DNA of 37,303 nucleotides from a virus. This document shows, piece after piece, positions 2,759 through 25,702 of this stretch; the stretch's first letter is position 1, and the number at the start of each line of letters is the position of its first letter. A model generated the notes under the pieces. That model saw only the letters and a program-made list of their open reading frames with translations. It did no database searches and was not told the DNA's origin. The translations under genes were made by a program, and so were the position numbers. The DNA is taken from positions 1-37,303 of the IMG/VR virus record IMGVR_UViG_3300021373_002521. One strand, written 5' to 3'.

Positions 2759-2980
2759 TTACCCCATTGTTGTTAGTACAGTGACTATACAGCCTGCTAG
2801 AAACAGAATTATTGCACCACCTAGAGTGATGGTACGAGTTTCTATGCGTTGTAGGTTATTGTCGATATTGTCTAAACGATTGAAGTTGGATTTCCAACGC
2901 TCTTCGCATTGTACAATATGAGTCTTGGTCTCGCACTCTAAAGCTTCTAGCCTAGAATGGTCATCATTTGTTGTCGCCAT
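2759..2980 (-). CDS. Small coiled-coil plus C-terminal membrane-anchor protein (XhlA-like)
   Basis: 73 residues. The N-terminal 45 are charged and heptad-patterned (SRLEALECET, FNRLDNIDNNLQRIETR), followed by one strong transmembrane helix (about 51-70, TLGGAIILFLAGCIVTVLTT). This order, a soluble coiled coil then a C-terminal anchor, matches small haemolysin XhlA-type proteins that assist holins, but also many other phage membrane proteins. It overlaps the end of the terminase-like gene by 17 bases. Confidence 0.65.
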   Translation of the reverse strand: MATTNDDHSRLEALECETKTHIVQCEERWKSNFNRLDNIDNNLQRIETRTITLGGAIILFLAGCIVTVLTTMG

Positions 2981-3428
2981 TGAGAAGTTTCTCCATTAAC
3001 TTTCCATAGTTACCTTGCCCGAATGGAATACTTTCATTAATTTGGACATTAGTTTGATTTTTTATGTTGCCCGCATTTACCTTCTCTAGGTCAGTTTGGG
3101 CTTTAATTTCTTCCATTCGCATTTTATGTGCCATTTGTAGTAGATCGGCAAGGTCTTTGGAGGAGTATATTCCAGTTTCACGAACTTCTTCTAGCTTACT
3201 TTCTATCATCTCATCAAGAACAGAGCCTATGTTATTTTTATTACGATAACCCATGTCTAGATAGACAGTATCGATATATCGTTTTACTTCTCGTTTATTT
3301 AGGTGTTCGACTACTTTATCTTCAGTAACCATAAGTTCCTGGCAGACTGCCTTAATGTTCCCATATTGTAGGTAACTATTAGCAACTTCCAGTCCTTCAG
3401 GAGATATGTTAGTTAATTCTTTTGCCAT
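2964..3428 (-). CDS. Terminase small subunit-like DNA-binding protein
   Basis: 154 residues. I place the start at the ATG at 3428 (MAKELTNISPEG); a longer frame upstream would begin inside the promoter -35 box. Residues about 5-50 form a helix-turn-helix (GNIKAVCQELMVTEDKVVEHLNK), followed by a helical oligomerisation region (SVLDEMIESKLEEVRE) and a polar tail. This order is typical of phage terminase small subunits, which recognise pac/cos DNA and load the large subunit. No large subunit lies next to it in the window, so the assignment rests on domain order alone. The start codon lies about one base from the predicted transcription start, so the mRNA may be leaderless. Confidence 0.6.
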   Translation of the reverse strand: MAKELTNISPEGLEVANSYLQYGNIKAVCQELMVTEDKVVEHLNKREVKRYIDTVYLDMGYRNKNNIGSVLDEMIESKLEEVRETGIYSSKDLADLLQMAHKMRMEEIKAQTDLEKVNAGNIKNQTNVQINESIPFGQGNYGKLMEKLLNGDNK

Positions 3429-3435
3429 GTTAGAA

Positions 3436-3464
3436 ATTATACGAGTTTTAACCTTCGAAGTCAA
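3436..3464 (-). promoter_or_regulatory. Sigma70 promoter, leftward, for the terminase-like operon
   Basis: Read leftward: TTGACT (3464-3459), 17-base spacer, TATAAT (3441-3436). Predicted +1 is about 3429, directly at the ATG of the gene at 3428. Confidence 0.8.
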
Positions 3465-4141: not shown

Positions 4142-4203
4142 AGCCTATAAAACAAGGGGTTTTTTAACATTTTTATTTTCAAAAACCCCTATTTTTATAG
4201 GCT
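4142..4203 (-). terminator. Long bidirectional hairpin terminator after the PPK2 gene
   Basis: Two stacked complementary arms: AGCCTATAAAA (4142-4152) pairs with TTTTATAGGCT (4193-4203), and AGGGGTTTTT (from 4155) pairs with AAAAACCCCT (4181-4190). The apex is AT-rich. The outer arm includes the first base of the PPK2 stop codon. It should stop transcription from both sides and may protect the mRNA 3' end. Confidence 0.8.
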
Positions 4204-4826
4204 TAAACGATCTTCTCTAGCTCTTTGTTTAATCTTTTTATAAACGCAAGCCGCCCCGAATTTTTATCATCATAATCTATAGAGAACCACTGCTTACAAT
4301 TATTAAACATGGATTCTTTTTTGATACTCATCGCATTATATTTTGCAACTGCTATCTTATCATTCTCTGATAGCTTCCAATATTTTAGCGGTGACTTTTC
4401 GCGGTCATTGATTCTATTAAGCTGTTCAACTTCCGAGATAGACAACCACATTTTTATAAAATGAATCGGCTGTTTTTCTTCCCATCGTTTAACCTGTTGC
4501 ATAAAATTAGAATACTGTTTATCACTACACCAACCGTTGACGGGTTGAACCAATGCGCGACTATACCAAGAGCGATCATAGAATACTATTTGATTTTCTG
4601 CAGGCATTTTGCGCTTCCAACTACCGAGCCAATGATTCATTTCTGATTCGCTAGGCTTACATGATAAGCATACACTAAACCATGCAGGGTTAAGGTATTG
4701 CGTAACGGTGCGTATCGTTCCCGTTTTGCCTGCGGTGTCGCGCCCCTCTAATATAACGGCAACGCGCCCCCGATTTTTTTCTGCTAATTTATTTAACTTT
4801 GCTTGCTCTGTTTGCAATTCATTCAT
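4203..4826 (-). CDS. ppk2: Polyphosphate kinase 2 (PPK2) family phosphotransferase
   Basis: 207 residues from the ATG at 4826, which forms an ATGA overlap with the exonuclease stop and has GGGAG nine bases upstream. PPK2 enzymes transfer phosphate from polyphosphate to nucleoside mono- or diphosphates, or the reverse. The hallmarks are present: the P-loop with its Asp, EGRDTAGKTGTI (about 27-38); the second motif FYDRSWYSRA (82-91); the strand KMWLSIS (125-131); and the lid SPLKYWKLSENDKIA (145-159). Length is slightly under the usual single-domain PPK2 (about 230-300), shortened at the N-terminus. The subclass (AMP- or ADP-phosphorylating) cannot be told by eye. It is last in a five-gene leftward operon with an exonuclease and a HAD phosphatase, which suggests nucleotide recycling (inference). 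Very few phages are known to me to carry this family. Confidence 0.9.
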   Translation of the reverse strand: MNELQTEQAKLNKLAEKNRGRVAVILEGRDTAGKTGTIRTVTQYLNPAWFSVCLSCKPSESEMNHWLGSWKRKMPAENQIVFYDRSWYSRALVQPVNGWCSDKQYSNFMQQVKRWEEKQPIHFIKMWLSISEVEQLNRINDREKSPLKYWKLSENDKIAVAKYNAMSIKKESMFNNCKQWFSIDYDDKNSGRLAFIKRLNKELEKIV

Positions 4827-5530
4827 GCTACTACACTCCCATGTATATGTTGATCTGTTGTTGCTTTTGGGTTGACGATACGCCAAGGTGCTTGATTATA
4901 TTTGCCGTAAGGAATTTTTTTCTTTGTTGCAAAACATTGTCGCAAAATTTCGACTTCAATTTGGCAATCCGATAAGGCGGTATGATCTTCTATAAAGCCA
5001 TGATCGCCCGAACAAAAACGGTAAGCGAATTCTGCACCTGTTTTGATATTGCCCTTTGGCGATACCCAACCGAGCGACTCCGCGATCTTTTTATAATTGC
5101 GATTATTCAATTTGACTTCGCAAGCGAATTGCCAAATATCAAGGATTTTACAAGGCGATTCTAATACCTTGCTTTCGTCTGTCAATGCGCGGTGCGTTGA
5201 ATTCATAGCGCGCATATCAAAGCCGATATTATAAGCCGCAATCGTTGAGACGCTATACTCTGCAATATCGGAGCGCAAGCGATCAATAATAAATTGCCAT
5301 GATTGCATTTTGATTTCGCCACTATCTAACATAGGCGCATAATGGGAGAACAATTTTTTAGCGTAAAATGCGCCCATCATAATTTTAGGCTGTGTGAAAA
5401 TCTCTTCAACAAGCGCATTGAATCGCGTTAGCTCATTACCGTTTCGGTCGTGAATGATATAGCCGACATCGTAAACATTGCCAGAAAGGTCAGCCGTTTC
5501 GGTGTCTAGGGTTAGAATAATATTTTTCAT
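4823..5530 (-). CDS. DEDD-family 3'-5' exonuclease (DnaQ/RNase T-like fold)
   Basis: 235 residues. The three exonuclease motifs are visible: ExoI LDTETADL (D9, E11), ExoII AAYNIGFDMRAM (N101, D105) and ExoIII EDHTALSDC (H183 and D188, the DEDDh spacing), with a further LDIWQF motif near 130. It should remove nucleotides from 3' ends of DNA or RNA with two divalent metals. There is no polymerase domain, so it is a stand-alone nuclease rather than a proofreading domain; the phage polymerase at 28.7 kb has its own. It starts two bases after the HAD gene stop and overlaps PPK2 by four bases, so the three are co-expressed. Substrate unknown. Confidence 0.85.
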   Translation of the reverse strand: MKNIILTLDTETADLSGNVYDVGYIIHDRNGNELTRFNALVEEIFTQPKIMMGAFYAKKLFSHYAPMLDSGEIKMQSWQFIIDRLRSDIAEYSVSTIAAYNIGFDMRAMNSTHRALTDESKVLESPCKILDIWQFACEVKLNNRNYKKIAESLGWVSPKGNIKTGAEFAYRFCSGDHGFIEDHTALSDCQIEVEILRQCFATKKKIPYGKYNQAPWRIVNPKATTDQHIHGSVVA

Positions 5531-5532
5531 AA

Positions 5533-6012
5533 TTAAGCCTGTAAGCGTGAATTTAATTTAATGGCATCTAAAGCCGTTATTTTAAGGCGATCATTCGCCA
5601 TTGTCAACACTGATTGATTATCATCTAGCAAGGTGACAGCCGAGCGCCAACGAGCGCGAGGTATATTTTGCGAGATTAAGAAACGAAAAATTTTAGAAAA
5701 TTTCATTTCATCATCGCGCCGATTATCGCCCTCTGCGCGTGACATAATCGCATCACATGATAAGCCGCGATCAATTAGAAAATCATAATCATGGCTAGAC
5801 AATACGCGAGCCGTACAAATTGCGACTTGATGATTTTTATCTGCAATTAATTTTCGCATAATACTAGCAAGAGGTAACAAGCGATCAGCGTAGATTTTTT
5901 CGCGTGTGCAATTTTCTCGCCATGCGTCAAGGTCAAGCGAACCATCTGCACGCGTCAACTGGCGGTGAGATGAATCAATGACTGTATGATCTAAATCAAA
6001 AATATATAACAT
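5533..6012 (-). CDS. HAD-superfamily phosphatase
   Basis: 159 residues. I choose the ATG at 6012, which overlaps the upstream TAA as TAATG and has GGAG nine bases ahead, over an in-frame ATG at 6027. HAD motif I is FDLDHTVID (nucleophile D6, acid D8); motif II is the Thr of ICTARV (T67); motif III Lys is probably K104 (DEMKFSK); motif IV is LLDDNQS (D130, D131). The short cap and the RAEGDNRRDDEMKFSKI segment resemble phage polynucleotide 3'-phosphatase and nucleotidase-type HADs that act on nucleic acid ends or dNMPs. Lying between a membrane protein and a 3'-5' exonuclease, it may process the nuclease's products. The exact substrate is not determinable here. Confidence 0.82.
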   Translation of the reverse strand: MLYIFDLDHTVIDSSHRQLTRADGSLDLDAWRENCTREKIYADRLLPLASIMRKLIADKNHQVAICTARVLSSHDYDFLIDRGLSCDAIMSRAEGDNRRDDEMKFSKIFRFLISQNIPRARWRSAVTLLDDNQSVLTMANDRLKITALDAIKLNSRLQA

Positions 6013-6206
6013 TAAACTAAACTCCAAAAATAACCGATTATACCTACAACATTTAGAACGATAAGATTATACAATTTTTTCTCTACCGCTTGAAACGTCA
6101 ACAAGGTCAATCCTAAAATGGCAAAGACTTTGCCATACCAAAAATTTATTAGGAATGGTGCGAGGCATAAAAGCCCCGAACCAATCCAGCCAGCTAGAAT
6201 AATCAA
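6012..6206 (-). CDS. Small membrane protein (64 aa, two to three TM helices)
   Basis: 64 residues, almost all hydrophobic: helices at about 2-20, 27-43 and 47-64 (ends IVLNVVGIIGYFWSLV). The short charged loop AVEKKLYN separates the last two. It is translationally coupled on both sides (four-base overlap with the HTH gene, TAATG with the HAD gene), which supports it as real. No transporter signature is recognised with confidence. Confidence 0.65.
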   Translation of the reverse strand: MIILAGWIGSGLLCLAPFLINFWYGKVFAILGLTLLTFQAVEKKLYNLIVLNVVGIIGYFWSLV

Positions 6207-6508
6207 GAGAGATTACTCAATAGGTTTGACAATGCAATCATAGGCGCTTTTTCAAGCCCTGTTAAAGAATTGTCATCAGCGTCAACCGCTTTTGCGATTG
6301 CGTTGACAAGGTCAGCTTTTGAAGCCGCGACACGTTTTGCAGGTCGCACTTTGACTTCGTAATCTAAGCCAAGCGATTTTGCCTTAGCAATAATCGAACG
6401 AGAGGTTTTACCGAGCTGTTCGGCAAGCTCTACAGCTTTAGCTTGATTAAGGGGTTGAGCATTTTCGAGGACAGCAATTTGCTCGGCTGTATAGTTTACT
6501 TTTTTCAT
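6203..6508 (-). CDS. Myb/SANT-type helix-turn-helix protein, paralogue 1
   Basis: 101 residues. Residues about 4-50 form a Myb/SANT-like HTH (NYTAEQIAVLENA, LAEQLGKTSRSIIAKAKSLGL), with the recognition helix in TSRSIIAKAKSLG. A second small domain (about 64-101) has the sequence ADLVNAIAKAVDADDNSLTGLEKAPM. Both halves align by eye with the 124-residue protein at 9135-9509 (VKSIIGKLSREGV and TIAGLEKAPKAAL), so they are paralogues; further relatives lie at 14313, 21541 and 25705. It is first in the operon ending with PPK2, behind three tandem promoters, and may autoregulate them (inference). Confidence 0.8.
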   Translation of the reverse strand: MKKVNYTAEQIAVLENAQPLNQAKAVELAEQLGKTSRSIIAKAKSLGLDYEVKVRPAKRVAASKADLVNAIAKAVDADDNSLTGLEKAPMIALSNLLSNLS

Positions 6509-6544
6509 AATGAATTCTCCAAAGAATTGTTTTTAAGAGCCGCT

Positions 6545-6573
6545 ATTATATCAAATAAAGCCGCGACTGTAAA
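6545..6573 (-). promoter_or_regulatory. Leftward promoter 3 of a tandem triplet (closest to gene 6508)
   Basis: Leftward TTTACA (6573-6568), 17-base spacer, TATAAT (6550-6545). The leader carries GGAG seven bases before the ATG at 6508. Confidence 0.8.
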
Positions 6574-6588
6574 GCTTTATTTGTTGTG

Positions 6589-6613
6589 AATATTACCATT
6601 TTTGGGCGGGTTG
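6589..6613. repeat. Direct repeat copy 1 in tandem-promoter leader
   Basis: AATATTACCATTTTTGGGCG continuing to GGTTG matches 6671-6694 apart from one inserted T and a C/T change. Each copy sits just downstream of a promoter, so the promoter-plus-leader unit looks duplicated. Confidence 0.75.
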
Positions 6614-6636
6614 GTTTCCCTCATTTCTTAATACTA

Positions 6637-6665
6637 ATTATAGCAAAGAAAAGCGAGATTGTCAA
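6637..6665 (-). promoter_or_regulatory. Leftward promoter 2 of a tandem triplet
   Basis: Leftward TTGACA (6665-6660), 17-base spacer, TATAAT (6642-6637): a full-consensus sigma70 promoter. Its initially transcribed region contains the copy-1 repeat at 6589-6613. Confidence 0.85.
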
Positions 6666-6670
6666 CTGTA

Positions 6671-6694
6671 AATATTACCATTTTGGGTGGGTTG
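6671..6694. repeat. Direct repeat copy 2 in tandem-promoter leader
   Basis: AATATTACCATTTTGGGTGG continuing to GTTG is the partner of 6589-6613, 82 bases away. The flanking TTTCC and ATTTCTTA also match, so the duplicated unit is about 45 bases. Confidence 0.75.
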
Positions 6695-6718
6695 ACTTTC
6701 CCCGATTTCTTAAAACAT

Positions 6719-6747
6719 ATTATATAAAATTTTTTGCGAAAAGTCAA
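6719..6747 (-). promoter_or_regulatory. Leftward promoter 1 of a tandem triplet
   Basis: Leftward TTGACT (6747-6742), 17-base spacer, TATAAT (6724-6719). The region just downstream contains the copy-2 repeat at 6671-6694. Confidence 0.85.
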
Positions 6748-6836
6748 CCCCTTTATTAGATTACTTTGGCATATGGGGGAGCGTTTATATAACCGAAAAA
6801 ACCCTTTAAAATCAAGGACTTGCGCGCGCCAACCCG

Positions 6837-6867
6837 GCGGCACAGACCGCTCTTTGTCAAGTGCCGC
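6837..6867. other. GC-rich inverted repeat
   Basis: GCGGCAC (6837-6843) and GTGCCGC (6861-6867) form a perfect 7-bp stem with a 17-base loop. A T7 run follows at 6874-6880 on the plus strand, so it could stop rightward transcription; leftward there is no adjacent U-run. The surrounding 6748-6884 shows no gene. Confidence 0.45.
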
Positions 6868-6884
6868 GTGCGCTTTTTTTAAGA

Positions 6885-6965
6885 CTAAAAATATATGCCT
6901 AGTCTAATCACCATATAATACGCGGTCACGCCCCAAAATATTAGCCATGTAATTTCGTTGCTCAT
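6885..6965 (-). CDS. Tiny single-TM peptide (26 aa)
   Basis: A 26-residue frame (MSNEITWLIFWGVTAYYMVI...) whose ATG overlaps the upstream gene's TAA as TAATG. It is one membrane helix with a short polar N-terminus. Coupling and hydrophobicity support translation, but at this length chance cannot be excluded. Confidence 0.45.
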   Translation of the reverse strand: MSNEITWLIFWGVTAYYMVIRLGIYF

Positions 6966-7258
6966 TATGCACACTCCTCAATCATTTCAATTCCGCCATT
7001 GCCATCAGGGAAGCATAACACTAAACCCTCAAGCTGTGTTACTGGAATAATCCCTTGATTACATAGCTTAACCATCAAGCCATGACGCGCCTCGCGAGCA
7101 GGTGACGCGATTGACGCACCTAAGGCATGAGGCTCACGAAATACAGAAACCTGCACGCCTATGGCATCGCCATGGTCAGCACCGCCATACTGGTACGCCT
7201 CACTTGTAACGTGAGAGTTGGTTCTACGAGTTTTAATAAATGCTTTTTTGATTTTCAT
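6965..7258 (-). CDS. Hypothetical phage protein (97 aa)
   Basis: 97 residues from ATG 7258 (MKIKKAFIKTRR), with GGAG ten bases upstream and its own promoter at 7284-7312. The N-terminus is basic (KIKKAFIKTRRTNSH); the rest is mixed with Gly-rich turns (QYGGADHGDAIGV), an Arg/His patch (SPAREARHGLMVKLC) and an acidic end (GNGGIEMIEECA). No motif recognised. It is the first gene of a two-gene unit with the 26-residue membrane peptide. Confidence 0.7.
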   Translation of the reverse strand: MKIKKAFIKTRRTNSHVTSEAYQYGGADHGDAIGVQVSVFREPHALGASIASPAREARHGLMVKLCNQGIIPVTQLEGLVLCFPDGNGGIEMIEECA

Positions 7259-7283
7259 GCTACTATCTCCATTTGATAAGGTA

Positions 7284-7312
7284 ATTATAGCTAATAATGC
7301 TAAGGTTGTCAA
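7284..7312 (-). promoter_or_regulatory. Leftward sigma70 promoter for gene 7258
   Basis: Leftward TTGACA (7312-7307), 17-base spacer, TATAAT (7289-7284), with AATTACC following as in the promoter at 7591. Confidence 0.85.
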
Positions 7313-7323
7313 GCGGTAATTTT

Positions 7324-7560
7324 TCACAAATCCACCGAGGTCATGTTGTTTACTCGAATATCCATAACTTCGACCACGTTGCGCACTATATCGTCTCGCA
7401 TCCATTTTACAGCTCTAGCAATTTGCCCACGATTATAAACATATTGCTCAAACTCTGCAGGCATACCTAAAGGTGCACCATTCTTTTGAACTGCACGAAT
7501 ATTGAACAGCTCTTCATAACGGTCATTTTTACATTTTATAACTTCAATAATGATTTGCAT
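7324..7560 (-). CDS. Hypothetical phage protein (78 aa)
   Basis: 78 residues from ATG 7560 (MQIIIEVIKCKNDRYEELF), with GAGAGAG upstream and a strong promoter at 7591-7619. It looks like a compact alpha/beta fold: a starting beta strand (QIIIEVIKC), then helices (YEELFNIRAVQ, AEFEQYVYNRGQIARAVKWM). No known motif. It is the first gene leftward of the candidate origin and so probably one of the earliest expressed. Confidence 0.7.
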   Translation of the reverse strand: MQIIIEVIKCKNDRYEELFNIRAVQKNGAPLGMPAEFEQYVYNRGQIARAVKWMRDDIVRNVVEVMDIRVNNMTSVDL

Positions 7561-7590
7561 AATTTTTCTCTCTCTTGATTGTATAAGGTA

Positions 7591-7619
7591 ATTATAGCAA
7601 AGGAATTTAAAAAAGTCAA
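7591..7619 (-). promoter_or_regulatory. Leftward sigma70 promoter for gene 7560
   Basis: Leftward TTGACT (7619-7614), 17-base spacer, TATAAT (7596-7591). Confidence 0.85.
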
Positions 7620-7752
7620 CACTTTCTTTATACCGTTTTTGCATAAGGGGGCGGGTTGCTTATAACCAAATTTTGGCCGCCGGCCCCGCAGGGCGCTGAA
7701 TGCGAATCATTTGCATTACGATTACCATTCGCAATTAGCGCAAAGCGCGCCG

Positions 7753-7862
7753 AAGTAGTAGTACGACGATGGTGCAAAATTTGCGCGGGTGCTCTGCGCC
7801 AAAGTAGTAGTACGACGATGGTGTAAAATAGCGCCGACCCACCAAGTAGTAGTACGACGATG
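7753..7862. repeat. Three iteron-like direct repeats of 19 bases
   Basis: AAGTAGTAGTACGACGATG occurs exactly at 7753-7771, 7802-7820 and 7844-7862. The first two also share the next GTG. The spacers (30 and 23 bases) are GC-rich and unlike each other, except that GCGC and TTTTGC/ATTTTAC-type words recur near the repeat edge. Three copies with different spacers do not make a CRISPR; binding sites for an initiator or regulator fit better. Confidence 0.85.
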
Positions 7863-7885
7863 ATTTTACGCGCTTGGTACCACGT

Positions 7886-7970
7886 GTCAAGTACTTTTTT
7901 GAAATATTTTGCCCAAAGGTCGGCGCCGATTATATCACCCCCGCGCGGGGTTTGTCAAGTACTTTTTTGA
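7886..7970. repeat. 17-base direct repeat pair carrying leftward -35 boxes
   Basis: GTCAAGTACTTTTTTGA at 7886-7902 and 7954-7970. Read leftward, each gives a TTGACA -35 element (with the preceding T). Only the right copy has a good -10. Confidence 0.8.
7929..7958 (-). promoter_or_regulatory. Leftward promoter with a perfect palindrome in its spacer
   Basis: Leftward TTGACA (7958-7953), 18-base spacer, TATAAT (7934-7929). The spacer holds the 12-base palindrome CCCCGCGCGGGG (7939-7950), placed like an operator that would block RNA polymerase. Transcripts would run through the three 19-base repeats. Confidence 0.7.
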
Positions 7971-8031
7971 TATAAATGCAGTAATTGTAGATAACTGAGT
8001 CTAATTTGAGAAAACCCCGAGCGGGGATAAT

Positions 8032-8061
8032 ATAATTCGAGATAATTGGAGATAATTCGAG
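8032..8061. repeat. Three tandem 10-base repeats (helically phased)
   Basis: ATAATTCGAG, ATAATTGGAG, ATAATTCGAG follow each other without gaps at 8032, 8042 and 8052. Weaker relatives (GTAATTGTAG at 7981) lie upstream. The 10-base period puts every copy on the same DNA face. Confidence 0.8.
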
Positions 8062-8162
8062 AAAATTTCTTGACATTTTGACCCCGTCCGGCCCCCCGAA
8101 GTTAGACCCTGTTTGCCTGACAAGTTTTTTCTTTTCACCCCCAACTAAATTTAAAAAACTTC

Positions 8163-8191
8163 TTGACTTTTGCTTCTCATATCTGTATAAT
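8163..8191 (+). promoter_or_regulatory. Rightward sigma70 promoter, distal, for the structured RNA
   Basis: TTGACT (8163-8168), 17-base spacer, TATAAT (8186-8191). Predicted +1 is near 8198. Confidence 0.85.
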
Positions 8192-8246
8192 GTCTTTATT
8201 GAATTGAGAGAACAAAGAAAAATTTTTAAGCAAAATCATTTAGTTC

Positions 8247-8275
8247 TTGACAATTCCCTTAAAACTCTGTATAAT
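8247..8275 (+). promoter_or_regulatory. Rightward full-consensus sigma70 promoter, proximal, for the structured RNA
   Basis: TTGACA (8247-8252), 17-base spacer, TATAAT (8270-8275). Predicted +1 is near 8282. Nothing coding follows before the terminator at 8690. Confidence 0.88.
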
Positions 8276-8281
8276 ATGTTT

Positions 8282-8712
8282 TAAGAAATTGAGAAAAGTT
8301 TAAAAGATTGGATTTTGGGTTATTCATCGGTCACCACGTGGCATAAAATCTATAAGAGTAGGGTAAAGAGTGATTCCCCTAGCCCCAAAATTCAACCTTT
8401 TGAGCTTTGATTACAGGAGCTTCTCATATCCTAGTTGGTAGCCATTGCGGTGATACGAAGATAGACAAGCGAACCTCAGTAAGAAAGCTCACGTATAGTC
8501 CTCGCGAAAGGTGGACAGGTTACTCTCACACCATAGCTGGAGAGCCGCTTCCTAGTTTTGCGGAAAACCTAACTAGGTTTCTATTGGGAGTATTCATGTA
8601 AAACTTAGCCCAAACATTACACCTACCGCATATCTGATAAAGTGTATGGAGGTGTTACTAAAACAAAAATAATGATAATAATCTTTTGTGCCCTCCTTGT
8701 GAGGGCTTTTTT
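8282..8712 (+). ncRNA. Candidate structured non-coding RNA, about 430 nt
   Basis: Two promoters lead in, a strong terminator closes it, and no reading frame has a ribosome site. Helices I can pair by eye: 8308-8319 with 8384-8395 (12 pairs, one G-U), enclosing a small hairpin TAGGG/CCCTA (8359-8363, 8377-8381); TGAGCTTT 8401-8408 with AAAGCTCA 8484-8491; CTCTC 8523-8527 with GAGAG 8540-8544; CCTAGTT 8551-8557 with AACTAGG 8571-8577; TTGGG 8584-8588 with CCCAA 8609-8613; ACACCT 8619-8624 with AGGTGT 8650-8655. CCTAGTT also occurs at 8430-8436 and could compete for the same partner, giving a possible switch. I do not recognise it as tmRNA, RNase P, 6S or a group I/II intron. Confidence 0.65.
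8690..8712 (+). terminator. Rho-independent terminator of the structured RNA
   Basis: GCCCTC (8690-8695), loop CTTGT, GAGGGC (8701-8706), then TTTTTT (8707-8712). Textbook form. Confidence 0.92.
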
Positions 8713-8738
8713 CTTCCCCAGCAATATTCAAAAAGTTC

Positions 8739-8768
8739 TTGACAGTTTCCCAAAATTAGTTGTATAAT
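8739..8768 (+). promoter_or_regulatory. Rightward promoter for the 8801-9509 gene pair
   Basis: TTGACA (8739-8744), 18-base spacer, TATAAT (8763-8768). An AAGGAAG ribosome site precedes the ATG at 8801. Confidence 0.85.
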
Positions 8769-8800
8769 ATAATTCTAAAAATGACAGAAGGAAGAAAATT

Positions 8801-15982: not shown

Positions 15983-17623
15983 ATGACTGACTATTATATA
16001 GCCACAGATGGTAGTGATAGCAATGATGGACTATCCATAGGAGCCCCCAAAGCTACTATAAATAGTCTTCAAACTACATATAACTTTTCTGACGCAGATA
16101 AAATTATTTTCAGAGCAGGAACTTATAATAGTGCATTAGCCTACGGCCCAGATGCTTCTGTCTTTATGGAGTTTGATACGATGACAGAAGTAGTATCTTT
16201 AGAAGGATACGAAGGTGAAACTGTTATTTTTGAGCCCACTGGAGGTGATATAAGCTGGCTTGTTTCAATGCATAATATTGATGTTACCAGTGATAACACC
16301 ACATACACCGTAAAAAATATACAATTTAGAAATAGTACAAGCGATATTACTTCAGGGTTTTTAAGGATGGAGCAGAAAACATCAGATACTAATATTGTCA
16401 AATTTATAGTAGATGGGTGTACTTTTACACAAACAAGCTCGGAAGCAGACTTAGGTGAGTCAGCTGTATATTCTAATACTACAGGCAAGGTAGATTTTAC
16501 TGTAAAAAACTGTACTTTTAGTATCTGTGATGAAAAAGCACTAAGGCTAACGAATCAATTAAAGGCTACAGTAGAAAATAATATAATTAATTGTAATCCA
16601 CCAAGTACTAATGATGTTGCAAGTTCTATGCTTTTATTTAGTGGTAAACAAAATCTGACAGAGACAACAGAACTCCATGTACGAAACAACACTATAGTAT
16701 TTAATCATTTAGACGGGGGAGGAAATTGCATAATATGTCAACCAGAGTATTATAATAAATTTTATATTTGTAATAATACTATTACCATTAATTCTGATAA
16801 TCCAGCAACGAATGGTGCAATAATTGATTTTATGCGACCTGCCACCACAACTAGCAATGATAGAAGCACAGCAGAGTTTAATTTAGTAGGAAACTATGTA
16901 AAAAATAATCATGGAAGAGGAGATTTCTTAGAGTTCTATAGGGCTGGAGGAGATGATGCTAATGTAGGTGTTTTCAATATAACGGATAATCATTGGATTG
17001 GCAATAATACTATAAGAGATCATACAACATCTGAAGTTCTTAATATGGAACACTGTCATGCTGCTACTATAAATATAAAACGTAATACGTTTGAAGATTT
17101 TCAAGATATGATAGTGATGAGAAATTCTGATGGTATACCGCATATTATTGAAGATAATATATTTAAAAATACAGGTAATACTGCTGACGGTTTAGGAGCT
17201 ACTACACCTATCACTATATGGGCTCAAGGTACAGTAGACACTGTTACTATCAAAAATAATTTATTTTTAATAGATGAAGAAGGTACATGTATTTATTGTA
17301 CTACTAATGATGGTGGGATTTCGGAATTCTTGATAGAGGGAAATAGTTTTGTTTATCTAGGTGATACAGTAACTGATGGAGATAATTTAATAACTAGAAT
17401 CCCTGCTGACACAATAGATGAAATAACTATCCGAGATAACTACTATTACGGACATGAAGGATTAAAGAGCACTACCTTATTTAATCATGACAGTAGTGCT
17501 TTTCCTGGTCCTGTAAATAATGCTATTGCTGATAATGGACTATTCCATACTAGCAACCTGATAAAAAGAAAAAAATCAGGTATGGTAAGTGACATGAGCC
17601 AAGAAGTAGCGTGGCAAGTATAA
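15983..17623 (+). CDS. Right-handed beta-helix tail spike-like protein
   Basis: 546 residues. The N-terminal section (YYIATDGSDSNDGLSIGAPK, INSLQTTYNFSDADKIIFRAGTY) is the characteristic entry of pectate-lyase-like parallel beta-helices. Then come many coils with Asn-Asn ladder turns: YTVKNIQFRNST, FIVDGCTFTQTS, FTVKNCTFSICD, LHVRNNTIVFNH, FYICNNTITINS, INIKRNTFEDF, VTIKNNLFLIDE, ITIRDNYYYGH. Such proteins are phage tail spikes or polysaccharide-degrading enzymes. I see no clear catalytic Asp/Glu set. The N-terminus lacks an obvious particle-binding domain, so attachment is unclear. Codon use and AT-richness match its neighbours. Confidence 0.82.
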   Translation: MTDYYIATDGSDSNDGLSIGAPKATINSLQTTYNFSDADKIIFRAGTYNSALAYGPDASVFMEFDTMTEVVSLEGYEGETVIFEPTGGDISWLVSMHNIDVTSDNTTYTVKNIQFRNSTSDITSGFLRMEQKTSDTNIVKFIVDGCTFTQTSSEADLGESAVYSNTTGKVDFTVKNCTFSICDEKALRLTNQLKATVENNIINCNPPSTNDVASSMLLFSGKQNLTETTELHVRNNTIVFNHLDGGGNCIICQPEYYNKFYICNNTITINSDNPATNGAIIDFMRPATTTSNDRSTAEFNLVGNYVKNNHGRGDFLEFYRAGGDDANVGVFNITDNHWIGNNTIRDHTTSEVLNMEHCHAATINIKRNTFEDFQDMIVMRNSDGIPHIIEDNIFKNTGNTADGLGATTPITIWAQGTVDTVTIKNNLFLIDEEGTCIYCTTNDGGISEFLIEGNSFVYLGDTVTDGDNLITRIPADTIDEITIRDNYYYGHEGLKSTTLFNHDSSAFPGPVNNAIADNGLFHTSNLIKRKKSGMVSDMSQEVAWQV

Positions 17624-17715
17624 AGGACACGCTAAGTCCTAAACATAGCACTAAACTAACCGAGTACCGAAAGGGCTCACAGCTGCGTGTCGAAAGAACG
17701 CAAAGGAGTAATAAA
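17624..17715 (+). other. Structured 5' leader of the Hsp20 gene
   Basis: The 92-base spacer has two mutually exclusive stems: a local AGGAC/GTCCT hairpin (17624-17640) and GACACGC (17626-17632) with GCGTGTC (17685-17691). The AAAGGAG ribosome site follows at 17702-17708. A structured leader before a heat-shock gene could be temperature-sensitive, but I cannot show that it masks the ribosome site. Confidence 0.45.
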
Positions 17716-18135
17716 ATGACTTTACAACAACATCAATTAACAATGGCAGACTTTCCGAAATTTTTTCTAGGGTTTGACCGACTACAGCAAGATGTTTTCT
17801 CCAATGTAGGAGATTCAGGCTACCCACGTTACAATGTCGTAAAAGTAGGAGAAGCAGGTTACCGTATAGAGCTTGCAATTCCTGGCTGGGACAAAGGTGA
17901 TGTAGCTATTCAATTACATAAGAATATATTGACTATAGAAGGTAGACGCACAAAATCAGAAACGCAAGAAACTTATATCCATAAGGGACTAAGCGGTAAA
18001 GGTTTCACTAGAACATTTAAAGTAGGGGACTACATTGTTTTGGATAAGGCATATATGGAGCGAGGTCTCCTATGCATTAGCCTAAGCGAAGTAATTCCAG
18101 AAGCAGAGAAACCTGTTACTGTGGACATTCTTTAA
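17716..18135 (+). CDS. Small heat shock protein (Hsp20/IbpA family)
   Basis: 139 residues from ATG 17716, with AAAGGAG seven bases ahead. The alpha-crystallin domain spans about 35-135: YPRYNVVKVGEAGYRIELAI, PGWDKGDVAIQLHKNILTIEG, IHKGLSGKGFTRTFKVGDYI, VLDKAYMERGLLCISLS and P-x-x-x-KP at the end. This is the IbpA order; the C-terminal I-x-I anchor is replaced by VTVDIL. The start (FPKFFLGFDRLQQDVF) also matches IbpA. It is an ATP-independent holdase. Phage Hsp20 genes occur in cyanophages and other marine phages and may protect virion assembly. It is placed among structural and lysis genes, consistent with late expression. Confidence 0.88.
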   Translation: MTLQQHQLTMADFPKFFLGFDRLQQDVFSNVGDSGYPRYNVVKVGEAGYRIELAIPGWDKGDVAIQLHKNILTIEGRRTKSETQETYIHKGLSGKGFTRTFKVGDYIVLDKAYMERGLLCISLSEVIPEAEKPVTVDIL

Positions 18136-22974: not shown

Positions 22975-23160
22975 ATGCCAGTAAAATTCAAAGAATCTCA
23001 AAAAGTAGTTATTGACCGAAAAAGTAAGAAAAGTAAAGTTGTTCACTTCTATATGAAGAACACTCCAACAGACGAGCTTATTAAAGAGCTAGATCGTGCT
23101 GTGCCTAAAGTTAAGCAAAAAATCCGTAACGAATTAGTCAAGAGAAATGTATCAGTATGA
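22975..23160 (+). CDS. Small basic protein (61 aa)
   Basis: 61 residues, starting with strands (VKFKESQKVVIDRKSKKSKV, VHFYMKN), then a helix (PTDELIKELDRAVPKVKQKI, RNELVKRN). It sits two bases after the previous gene and overlaps the ligase start by four bases (ATGA). It often appears with ligase-adjacent phage genes as I recall; no proven function. Confidence 0.6.
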   Translation: MPVKFKESQKVVIDRKSKKSKVVHFYMKNTPTDELIKELDRAVPKVKQKIRNELVKRNVSV

Positions 23161-24107
23161 AAGAGTTGCTAGATATGGCTTGTCTTGCCTATTATCAAGA
23201 CGGTGATCCTATTCTTACTGATGCTCAGTTTGATAGGCTTGCAGAGTTACATAACTATCATAATGTTGGCTATACTCCTACTGATGGAGTACGCCACACA
23301 TATCAAATGTATTCCTTGCAAAAGTGTTTCGACACTTTAGACTCTCCTTTTGGTATTCTCACCGATAGCGTAGCCTGTAGCGTAAAACTTGATGGCGCAG
23401 CAGTTGGTTTGACCTATGTTAATGGTCAACTTACTCAAGCTCTTACTCGTGGAGATGGTATTCATGGTAGAGATATTCTTGATAAGATGCAGCATCTTGT
23501 TCCTGAATTTATACAGATTAAAGGTATAGTGCAGGTTACAGGAGAAGTAGTAGCTCCTGATAGGATTGAAAACGCCAGAAACTACGCTGCGGGGTCACTA
23601 AACCTTAAAGATGTAGAGGAGTTTAAAACTAGAGAAGTCTTTTTCTATGCTTACGGTATGGAAGATGATGGTGATTTTATGGGTGATGTTGAGTACGGAG
23701 ATACATGGCAAGTTCGTATGGAAACCTTAAAAGAAGACGGTTTCAATACTGTTCATACCCATATTACAGATGGATTCCCTACAGATGGTCTAGTTTATCG
23801 TATCAATGATACCTACGACTTCAATGCTATGGGACACACTGCTAAGCATCCACGCGGTGCGTTTGCTCTTAAAGAAAAACAAAGTGGTGTAGTTACTACT
23901 CTCAATGATGTAGTATGGCAAGTAGGTAAATCAGGAGTAGTCAGTCCAGTTGCAATTCTAGAGCCTGTAAAGATTGGAGATGCTACAATATCGAGAGCCA
24001 CGCTGCACAATCTAGACTATATACGAGAGTTAGATCTTGAGATAGGCTGTAGTGTAGAAATTATAAGATCTGGAGAAATTATTCCCAGAGTAGTACGGAG
24101 AATATAA
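23157..24107 (+). CDS. ligA: NAD-dependent DNA ligase, N-terminal part (split LigA)
   Basis: 316 residues. It holds a shortened Ia region (YYQDGDPILTDAQFDRLAEL), the nucleotidyltransferase domain with the adenylated lysine in CSVKLDGAAVGLTYVNG (K77), further motifs (ALTRGDGIHGRDI, VQVTGEVVAP, ARNYAAGSLNLKDVEEF, TDGLVYRIND, ALKEKQS) and the OB fold (VWQVGKSGVVSPVAILEPVK, ATLHNLDYIRELDLEIGCSV, EIIRSGEIIPRV). It stops there; the zinc, HhH and BRCT parts are in the gene at 24956-25702. It seals nicks with NAD+. T5 is also known for a two-gene NAD ligase. One CTNCGGGG motif lies inside (23587-23594). Confidence 0.92.
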   Translation: MKELLDMACLAYYQDGDPILTDAQFDRLAELHNYHNVGYTPTDGVRHTYQMYSLQKCFDTLDSPFGILTDSVACSVKLDGAAVGLTYVNGQLTQALTRGDGIHGRDILDKMQHLVPEFIQIKGIVQVTGEVVAPDRIENARNYAAGSLNLKDVEEFKTREVFFYAYGMEDDGDFMGDVEYGDTWQVRMETLKEDGFNTVHTHITDGFPTDGLVYRINDTYDFNAMGHTAKHPRGAFALKEKQSGVVTTLNDVVWQVGKSGVVSPVAILEPVKIGDATISRATLHNLDYIRELDLEIGCSVEIIRSGEIIPRVVRRI

Positions 24108-24955: not shown

Positions 24956-25702
24956 ATGCAAACAATACAAGCTCCAACAAGTTGCCCATCGTGTAACTCG
25001 ATGCTTGATGTAGTCAATAATCTTTTATTTTGCAGAAATACATCTTGTACTTCACAAACTCATAAAAGGCTAGAGCACTTTGCAAAGACCCTCAAGATTA
25101 AGGGGCTTGGACCAAAAGCTATCGAGAAATTGGGGGTCACAACTTCACAAGAGTTGTACTTGCTAACTCTAGATGACTTAGTCCTTCTCTTAGAATCTGA
25201 GAAAATAGGTGCAAAAGTTTTTGATGAGATTCAGAAGTCTAAAGGTGTTCCATTGAACGTAGTTTTACCTGCCTTGTCAATACCTTTGATTGGTAATACA
25301 GCAGCTAAAAAGTTAGCTACTGTATGCGATTACTTAGCAGATATTGACAAAGAAAGCTGTCAGTCAGCAGGGCTAGGCCCTAAGGCAACGGAAAACTTAC
25401 TTTCATACTTAAAAGAGCATGGCATCGCGCTACTAGGTCATCCATTCTCTTTCAAGTTCGAAAAACCTATACAAATAGCCAATAAGGGCGTAGTATGTAT
25501 CTCAGGCAAGTTAAAATCTTATAAAACAAAGGCTGAAGCCACCGAGATATTACAACAACAAGGCTATACTGTAAAAGGTTCTCTAACGCGAGACGTAACC
25601 ATTCTAGTTAATGAGAGTGGCATAGAGTCCGCTAAAACTAAATCAGCCCAATCTAAGGGCATTCAAATCATAACTAATCTATTAGATTTTCTGGAGAAAT
25701 AA
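24956..25702 (+). CDS. ligB: NAD-dependent DNA ligase, C-terminal part (Zn finger, HhH, BRCT)
   Basis: 248 residues. The zinc finger is CPSCNSMLDVVNNLLFCRNT and SCTSQ (C-x2-C...C-x4-C, about 9-32), then helix-hairpin-helix units (LKIKGLGPKAIEKLGVTTSQ, LPALSIPLIGNTAAKKLATV, SAGLGPKATENLLSYL) and a C-terminal BRCT domain (about 170-248: KGVVCISGKLKSYKTKAEAT, EILQQQGYTVKGSLTRDVTI, LVNESG). In normal LigA these follow the OB domain; here they are a separate protein that should bind the partner at 23157. It has its own promoter, so the two halves may be made in unequal amounts. Confidence 0.9.
   Translation: MQTIQAPTSCPSCNSMLDVVNNLLFCRNTSCTSQTHKRLEHFAKTLKIKGLGPKAIEKLGVTTSQELYLLTLDDLVLLLESEKIGAKVFDEIQKSKGVPLNVVLPALSIPLIGNTAAKKLATVCDYLADIDKESCQSAGLGPKATENLLSYLKEHGIALLGHPFSFKFEKPIQIANKGVVCISGKLKSYKTKAEATEILQQQGYTVKGSLTRDVTILVNESGIESAKTKSAQSKGIQIITNLLDFLEK

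Follow-up and report, generated by a model that had tools for sequence, protein, structure and literature searches.

A minimal polyphosphate kinase 2 with a serine at the class-signature position in a Dmp-like operon of an uncultivated relative of phage T5

Results

A PPK2 gene ends a Dmp-like operon

We analyzed a 37,303-nt stretch of DNA (the window; positions 1 to 37,303 of IMG/VR virus record IMGVR_UViG_3300021373_002521). The gene at 4203–4826 on the minus strand encodes a 207-aa polyphosphate kinase 2 (PPK2), a minimal single-domain form recognized by its profile, fold, and catalytic residues. The protein scored 164.3 bits against PF03976 (E = 4.3e-48; curated cut-off 22.3 bits), and an AlphaFold2 model built with 56 related sequences as input (pLDDT 94) has a thymidylate-kinase-like alpha/beta/alpha fold with a lid. 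Foldseek matched the model to PPK2s in the PDB at TM scores of 0.88–0.92 (Francisella, 0.88–0.89; Meiothermus and Cytophaga, up to 0.92); all 50 PDB structure matches listed were PPK2s, and the sequence matches among solved structures were all PPK2s or polyphosphate phosphotransferases. A sequence-only reading of this DNA had proposed a PPK2 here, with the PF03976 search as a check, and the proposal was borne out, with the gene on the minus strand (stops occur all along 4203–4826 in plus-strand reading); profile and fold exclude another P-loop kinase family. The NCBIfam PPK2 equivalogs (TIGR03707, TIGR03708, NF050016, NF042973) also matched, all under their curated cut-offs; the best, TIGR03707, reached 190.9 of the 301.8 bits required. 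A PHROG search with the window PPK2 gave no match, and a viral fold library gave one other clear PPK2 among the 50 matches listed; it is annotated as a thymidylate kinase and comes from an 'uncultured marine phage'.

Nearly all IMG/VR relatives share the window ATG as their start or begin a few codons away, and most are 204–211 aa long. The gene is under purifying selection, with a dN/dS (NG86) of 0.17 between the window and its relative L003 and a median of 0.07 over 16 close PPK2 pairs. Because dN/dS is low and the cassette is kept in many contigs, the gene is real far beyond chance.

PPK2 is the last gene of an operon on the minus strand that begins with a D5-like transcription regulator/DNA-binding protein (6203–6508; phrog_323, E = 1.6e-6). 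There follow a 64-aa apparent membrane protein (6012–6206), a HAD phosphatase (5533–6027; phrog_415, with a DLDHT motif), and a DEDDh 3'-5' exonuclease-like gene of DnaQ/ExoX/Orn fold (4823–5530; phrog_20187), whose stop overlaps the PPK2 start codon (ATGA). The shared strand and this overlap agree with the earlier claim that an exonuclease and a HAD phosphatase stand in one operon with PPK2. The exonuclease residues D9, E11, D105, H183, and D188 are invariant in 18 homologues. A gene for the terminase small subunit (2964–3464, minus strand; phrog_3802, E = 4e-38) lies downstream from the operon.

The best annotated relatives of the HAD protein were the Dmp proteins (deoxynucleoside-5'-monophosphatases) of T5-like phages, with 37%–40% identity over about 96% of the query; the comparison covered annotated Dmp of T5-like phages other than T5 itself (NC_005859). 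By homology, we therefore describe it as a Dmp-like, predicted 5'-dNMPase. The protein also matches PNKP/polynucleotide-kinase models, and a PNK-type identity is less likely given its best annotated relatives. In T5, Dmp discards host dNMPs, and in T5-like isolates dmp adjoins A1 and terminase genes, as the window cassette lies near the terminase small subunit. The 64-aa apparent membrane protein, which sits between the D5-like regulator and Dmp and is conserved in the cassette in 32 loci, matched no Pfam or PHROG family; a role in nucleoside export would suit its context.

We surveyed the upstream genes of 49 loci with more than 2.5 kb of upstream sequence, all with a PPK2 of the serine-signature type described below (S-type). 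The HAD gene was present in 35 of them; HAD together with the exonuclease or a replacement, cluster c34, was found in 32, and 14 had none of these genes. Cluster c34 (165–214 aa) fills the exonuclease slot directly before PPK2 in L018, L020, L046, L061, L064, L068, L070, L089, and L094; it is unrelated to the exonuclease it replaces, and the two members scanned had no Pfam or PHROG match. A gene for an HSP20-type small heat shock protein (PF00011) lies at 17611–18135 of the window, and one further subgroup of relatives has HSP20 genes a short distance from PPK2.

Promoters and repeats upstream of the operon

Three near-consensus sigma-70-like promoters precede the operon on the minus strand, at 6545–6573 (TTTACA-17-TATAAT), 6637–6665 (TTGACA-17-TATAAT, 12/12, with TG before the second hexamer), and 6719–6747 (TTGACT-17-TATAAT, 11/12), with counterparts at nearly the same positions in the relatives L001–L003. 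The scanned region had 20 promoter-like sites, compared with 10.0 ± 2.9 in its shuffles; more distant relatives often had no such strong matches. The intergenic regions of 6500–8800 are promoter-rich, and plus-strand direct repeats with TTGACA/TATAAT-like boxes occur near 8160, 8244, and 8734. A AAGTAGTAGTACGACGATG repeat is present in three copies at 7747–7871, and several relatives have short SSSYYY-rich ORFs (cluster c38) in the vicinity of PPK2; this repeat and the c38 ORFs may represent one repeated intergenic element that these phages share. No Rfam family or tRNA scored above threshold in scans of the window.

The source is a T5-like phage

The window DNA polymerase is 44% identical to the polymerases of T5-like Vibrio phages. 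A comparison with Vibrio phage vB_ValS_X1 matched 17 of its ORFs to the window, among them most of the D-region in order, and the NAD-dependent DNA ligase is apparently split (23157–24107 and 24956–25702), with the same two X1 ORFs matched in order. Two features by which T5-like phages are recognized, a syntenic early replication region and an apparently split NAD ligase, are both found here. As judged by matches to X1, the replication region is present in three large contigs with related PPK2 genes (G011, G012, and G014), two of which (G011 and G012) have the structural module as well. No homologue of the X1 protein A1 was detectable in the window or in the three large contigs compared. T5-like phages also bear their pre-early genes on long terminal repeats; the window and its relatives are linear fragments. 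On these sequence comparisons, we assign the source to an uncultivated T5-like (Demerecviridae-like) phage; we reject host contamination, since the window belongs to a virus record of IMG/VR and encodes T5-like replication proteins together with a terminase subunit.

A long-stemmed branch of PPK2 with its own signature

PPK2s are assigned to class I, II, or III by an Asn, Gly, or Glu, respectively, after Walker B (PMC8776046; PMC11641546). The window protein has Ser89 at this position, within FYDRSWYSRA (residues 82–91; 4554–4583, minus strand), and so carries none of the three class signatures. The Walker A motif is GRDTAGKT (residues 28–35; 4722–4745, minus strand), with GK[ST] where GKG is usual, and the lid region from R138 to S153 (4368–4415, minus strand) includes R138, R142, and SPLKYWKLS, the two arginines being equivalent to R174 and R178 of the class I enzyme of Francisella tularensis (FtPPK2) by alignment. 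The sequence-only reading had called all PPK2 hallmarks intact; the three motifs are indeed present, but the Ser signature and the GKT P-loop are noncanonical.

Three profile scans of IMG/VR confirmed 302, 305, and 357 loci, which overlap between scans, and we analyzed the best 80 of each. Among the 133 distinct cores read, 81 had Ser and 52 had Asn at the signature position. The P-loop was GK[ST] in all 78 distinct S-type cores where it was readable and GKG in all 52 Asn-type (N-type) cores, as in almost all cellular PPK2s. S-type proteins are minimal (∼205 aa), and those of the Asn type are longer, with a median of 388 aa from stop to stop; the source contigs of the Asn type reach 294 kb. 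This second phage type, found in huge phages and in large IMG/VR contigs (L006–L008, L300–L379), has an N-terminal extension of ∼150 aa or more. A profile scan of INPHARED (50,697 phage records) gave convincing phage PPK2s in the huge phages LR745206 and LR756501–LR756503; the other hits were not counted as phage, being bacterial-looking (an Acinetobacter contig with ubi and recBC) or unannotated/unverified records. The expectation that very few phages encode PPK2 thus holds for cultured phages, but not for IMG/VR, with about 300 loci per scan.

In a first tree, 30 sampled S-type proteins formed one clade with full support on a stem of ∼2 changes per column, and this clade grouped with the huge-phage PPK2s and with marine cellular PPK2s of the SAR86/OM43 type (99/99). 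The S clade was kept (100/100) in a tree with more huge-phage sequences, which did not settle whether its sister is the huge-phage type or the marine cellular clade (44/93). By sequence, the S-type is a monophyletic, long-stemmed branch of PPK2. We rejected its filing in class I because the defining residue is absent, although the tree, a kind of analysis already envisaged in the earlier reading, groups the clade with class I-like sequences. The nearest cellular proteins among the matches listed were 37%–43% identical to the window protein; SAR86/OM43-type proteins have Thr at the signature position together with GKT, and one Porticoccaceae protein has Ser.

A conserved catalytic core and a drifted polyphosphate channel

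We compared the phage enzymes with FtPPK2 residue by residue. By alignment, FtPPK2 D62, K66, D117, R118, R174, R178, and K228 correspond to phage D30, K34, D84, R85, R138, R142, and K188, all of which are invariant in 63 of 63 distinct phage relatives. The Walker A Asp and Lys, the Walker B DRSxY, and the lid R-X3-R are likewise invariant in this set, as is the signature Ser (63/63; 81/81 distinct S-type cores in IMG/VR). Alanine mutants of FtPPK2 K66, R118, and R178 weaken polyphosphate binding and activity (PMC8776046). The proposed polyphosphate channel of FtPPK2 comprises H76, R174, K184, K228, K229, and R232 (PMC4748334). Across the 63 distinct relatives, H76 is replaced by Tyr, the equivalent of K229 is variable and not kept as a basic residue, the lid residue equivalent to K184 (K148) is Lys in 28 and Thr in 35, and the equivalent of R232 (R192) is Arg in 47. 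The core thus looks active and the channel drifted, and the window enzyme is probably active, judged by its residues; donor use in the S-type may have shifted.

The T5 dNMP kinase family was not found in S-type contigs

The dNMP kinase family of T5 (DNMK; PF21448) was found in eight out of eight T5-like isolates tested, and no PPK2 was seen in these eight in the INPHARED scan. DNMK was found in none of 31 S-type PPK2 contigs, six of them 71–103 kb long, all of these contigs being incomplete. No NDK was found in 10 S-type contigs tested, nor in two isolates tested, and the weak thymidylate kinase hits in the contigs were the P-loop of PPK2 itself. The small subunit of ribonucleotide reductase was kept in six of 10 larger S-type contigs examined. 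This gene content fits a history in which PPK2 replaced the dNMP kinase; one coincident, lineage-specific loss of DNMK is possible, some contigs being close relatives.

Discussion

The explanation that best accounts for these observations, and one we consider probable, is that the gene, transcribed early as part of the Dmp operon, specifies a functional PPK2 peculiar to phages, which raises nucleotide supply from polyphosphate. The host sigma-70 RNA polymerase would transcribe PPK2 early, as the last gene of the operon; the enzyme would move phosphate, most likely from host polyphosphate, onto nucleotides, and would so raise the supply of (d)NDP/(d)NTP or ATP/GTP while the phage dismantles the host nucleotide economy. 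The gene content of the operon points to an early takeover of nucleotide metabolism, from which the phage would presumably benefit, and the synteny with the T5 D-region and the ribonucleotide reductase of larger contigs lend the explanation further support. The changed residues near the substrate, the missed NCBIfam cut-offs, and the long stem branch weigh against it.

A more specific form of this explanation, possible but on balance doubtful, is that PPK2 assumed the role that the dNMP kinase has in T5, phosphorylating the dNMPs and/or dNDPs that come from phage ribonucleotide reductase and ThyX, so that polyphosphate would drive DNA precursor synthesis. The opposite distributions of DNMK and PPK2 in isolates and S-type contigs speak for such a takeover, as do the lack of NDK in 10 contigs, the lack of thymidylate kinase hits other than the PPK2 P-loop, and the retention of the reductase small subunit in many larger contigs and of both replication and structural modules in G011 and G012. 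Substrate use offers precedents: class III PPK2s use dAMP and dADP (PMC8776046), and TMP is bound in a solved class II PPK2 (9h8l). On the other hand, the contigs are incomplete and some are closely related, so that a single loss with no causal link might produce the same pattern; a divergent or different kinase could escape the search, NDK is missing from the two isolates too, and characterized PPK2s mostly favor purine ribonucleotides. A yet broader proposal, which we regard as rather unlikely, is that a fourth, virus-only PPK2 class (Ser signature, GK[ST], ∼205 aa) took the place of the T5 dNMP kinase in an uncultivated T5-like lineage that is widespread and in which host polyphosphate drives DNA precursor synthesis.

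The donor could also have changed, leaving a nucleotide kinase that is built on the PPK2 scaffold but depends on NTP. The uniform GK[ST] of the S-type, against the uniform GKG of the N-type, is the usual P-loop of NTP-using kinases, and the distal polyphosphate channel is conserved only in part. We nevertheless find this unlikely: K34, R85, R138, R142, and K188, whose FtPPK2 equivalents bind or adjoin polyphosphate, are invariant, GKT is found as well in cellular PPK2s of the SAR86/OM43 type, and a Ser or Thr at this P-loop position need not alter the donor.

Two further readings appear improbable to us. The benefit might lie in the removal of polyphosphate, with nucleotides as a by-product: draining the host store would lift the silencing of foreign DNA by polyphosphate and Hfq, or polyphosphate stress signaling. 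According to PMC10954037, polyphosphate and Hfq silence prophages and mobile elements, and the gene shares an operon of early type with a D5-like regulator; a hydrolase would be a simpler means, however, and the neighbors of PPK2 in the operon would target nucleotides and nucleic acid. Similarly low odds attach to the salvage line suggested by the sequence-only reading, in which exonuclease, phosphatase, and PPK2 turn host nucleic acid by way of NMPs into NTPs. In the window, the three genes lie side by side in one orientation, and the HAD gene with the exonuclease or c34 recurs in about two-thirds of the loci surveyed (32/49). Even so, a simple salvage line is unlikely because a Dmp-like phosphatase would strip the 5'-phosphate from the exonuclease products and so destroy the NMP intermediate. 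Moreover, PPK2 stands without either neighbor in 14 of the 49 loci, and the unrelated c34 takes the exonuclease slot in others. Finally, a split polynucleotide kinase, with the HAD protein as 3'-phosphatase and the P-loop protein as 5'-kinase, is hardly credible despite the PNKP-type model matches, as the fold and motifs are those of PPK2 and not PNK, the HAD relatives are Dmp, and the two genes are often apart.

If the PPK2 is active, as the preferred explanation holds, it would directly link a host energy and phosphate store to phage replication in relatives of the model phage T5. Through the apparent mutual exclusion of PPK2 and the dNMP kinase, what might have been labeled loosely as an 'auxiliary metabolic gene' becomes a specific case of replacement that can be tested. 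Because its signature residue belongs to none of the three described classes, this 205-aa PPK2 also lends itself to asking which features determine substrate class among PPK2s, and its small size makes it a candidate for regenerating nucleotides in biocatalysis.

Virus-encoded polyphosphate kinases are not new as a concept. Virus-carried ppk2 has been published from activated sludge and reservoir viromes (PMC13188868), and a study cited there (Li et al., 2025, Water Res 268:122678) has virus-encoded polyphosphate kinases as its subject; we liken these to the S-type by concept. PMC10987575 contains no ppk. The literature searched gave no account of the S-type subfamily or its signature, of its occurrence in T5-like phages, or of its apparent mutual exclusion with the dNMP kinase.

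Among known systems, the pre-early Dmp operon of T5 (A2-A1-dmp) resembles the window in having a Dmp homologue near terminase genes and a DNA-binding regulator in the cluster; the window differs in the exonuclease and PPK2 that follow dmp and in the lack of a detectable homologue of X1 A1. The huge-phage PPK2s (LR745206, LR756501–3, and the N-type contigs of IMG/VR) are also phage-encoded and share the 99/99 group of the first tree, but have the Asn signature, GKG, and the N-terminal extension of ∼150 aa or more. SAR86/OM43-type PPK2s (L104, L105, L119, L129) share GKT and a small hydroxyl residue at the signature position, with about 41%–44% identity for L104, L105, and L119; they are cellular, about 280 aa long, have Thr and not Ser, and fall outside the phage clade. 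Class I PPK2s (FtPPK2 and S. meliloti SMc02148) are the best sequence and fold matches (34%–38% identity over the model, TM about 0.88–0.90) and share the catalytic Asp, Lys, and Arg and the lid, whereas the phage form, at about 205 aa, is without their longer ends, has Ser for Asn and GK[ST] for GKG, and conserves the polyphosphate channel in part.
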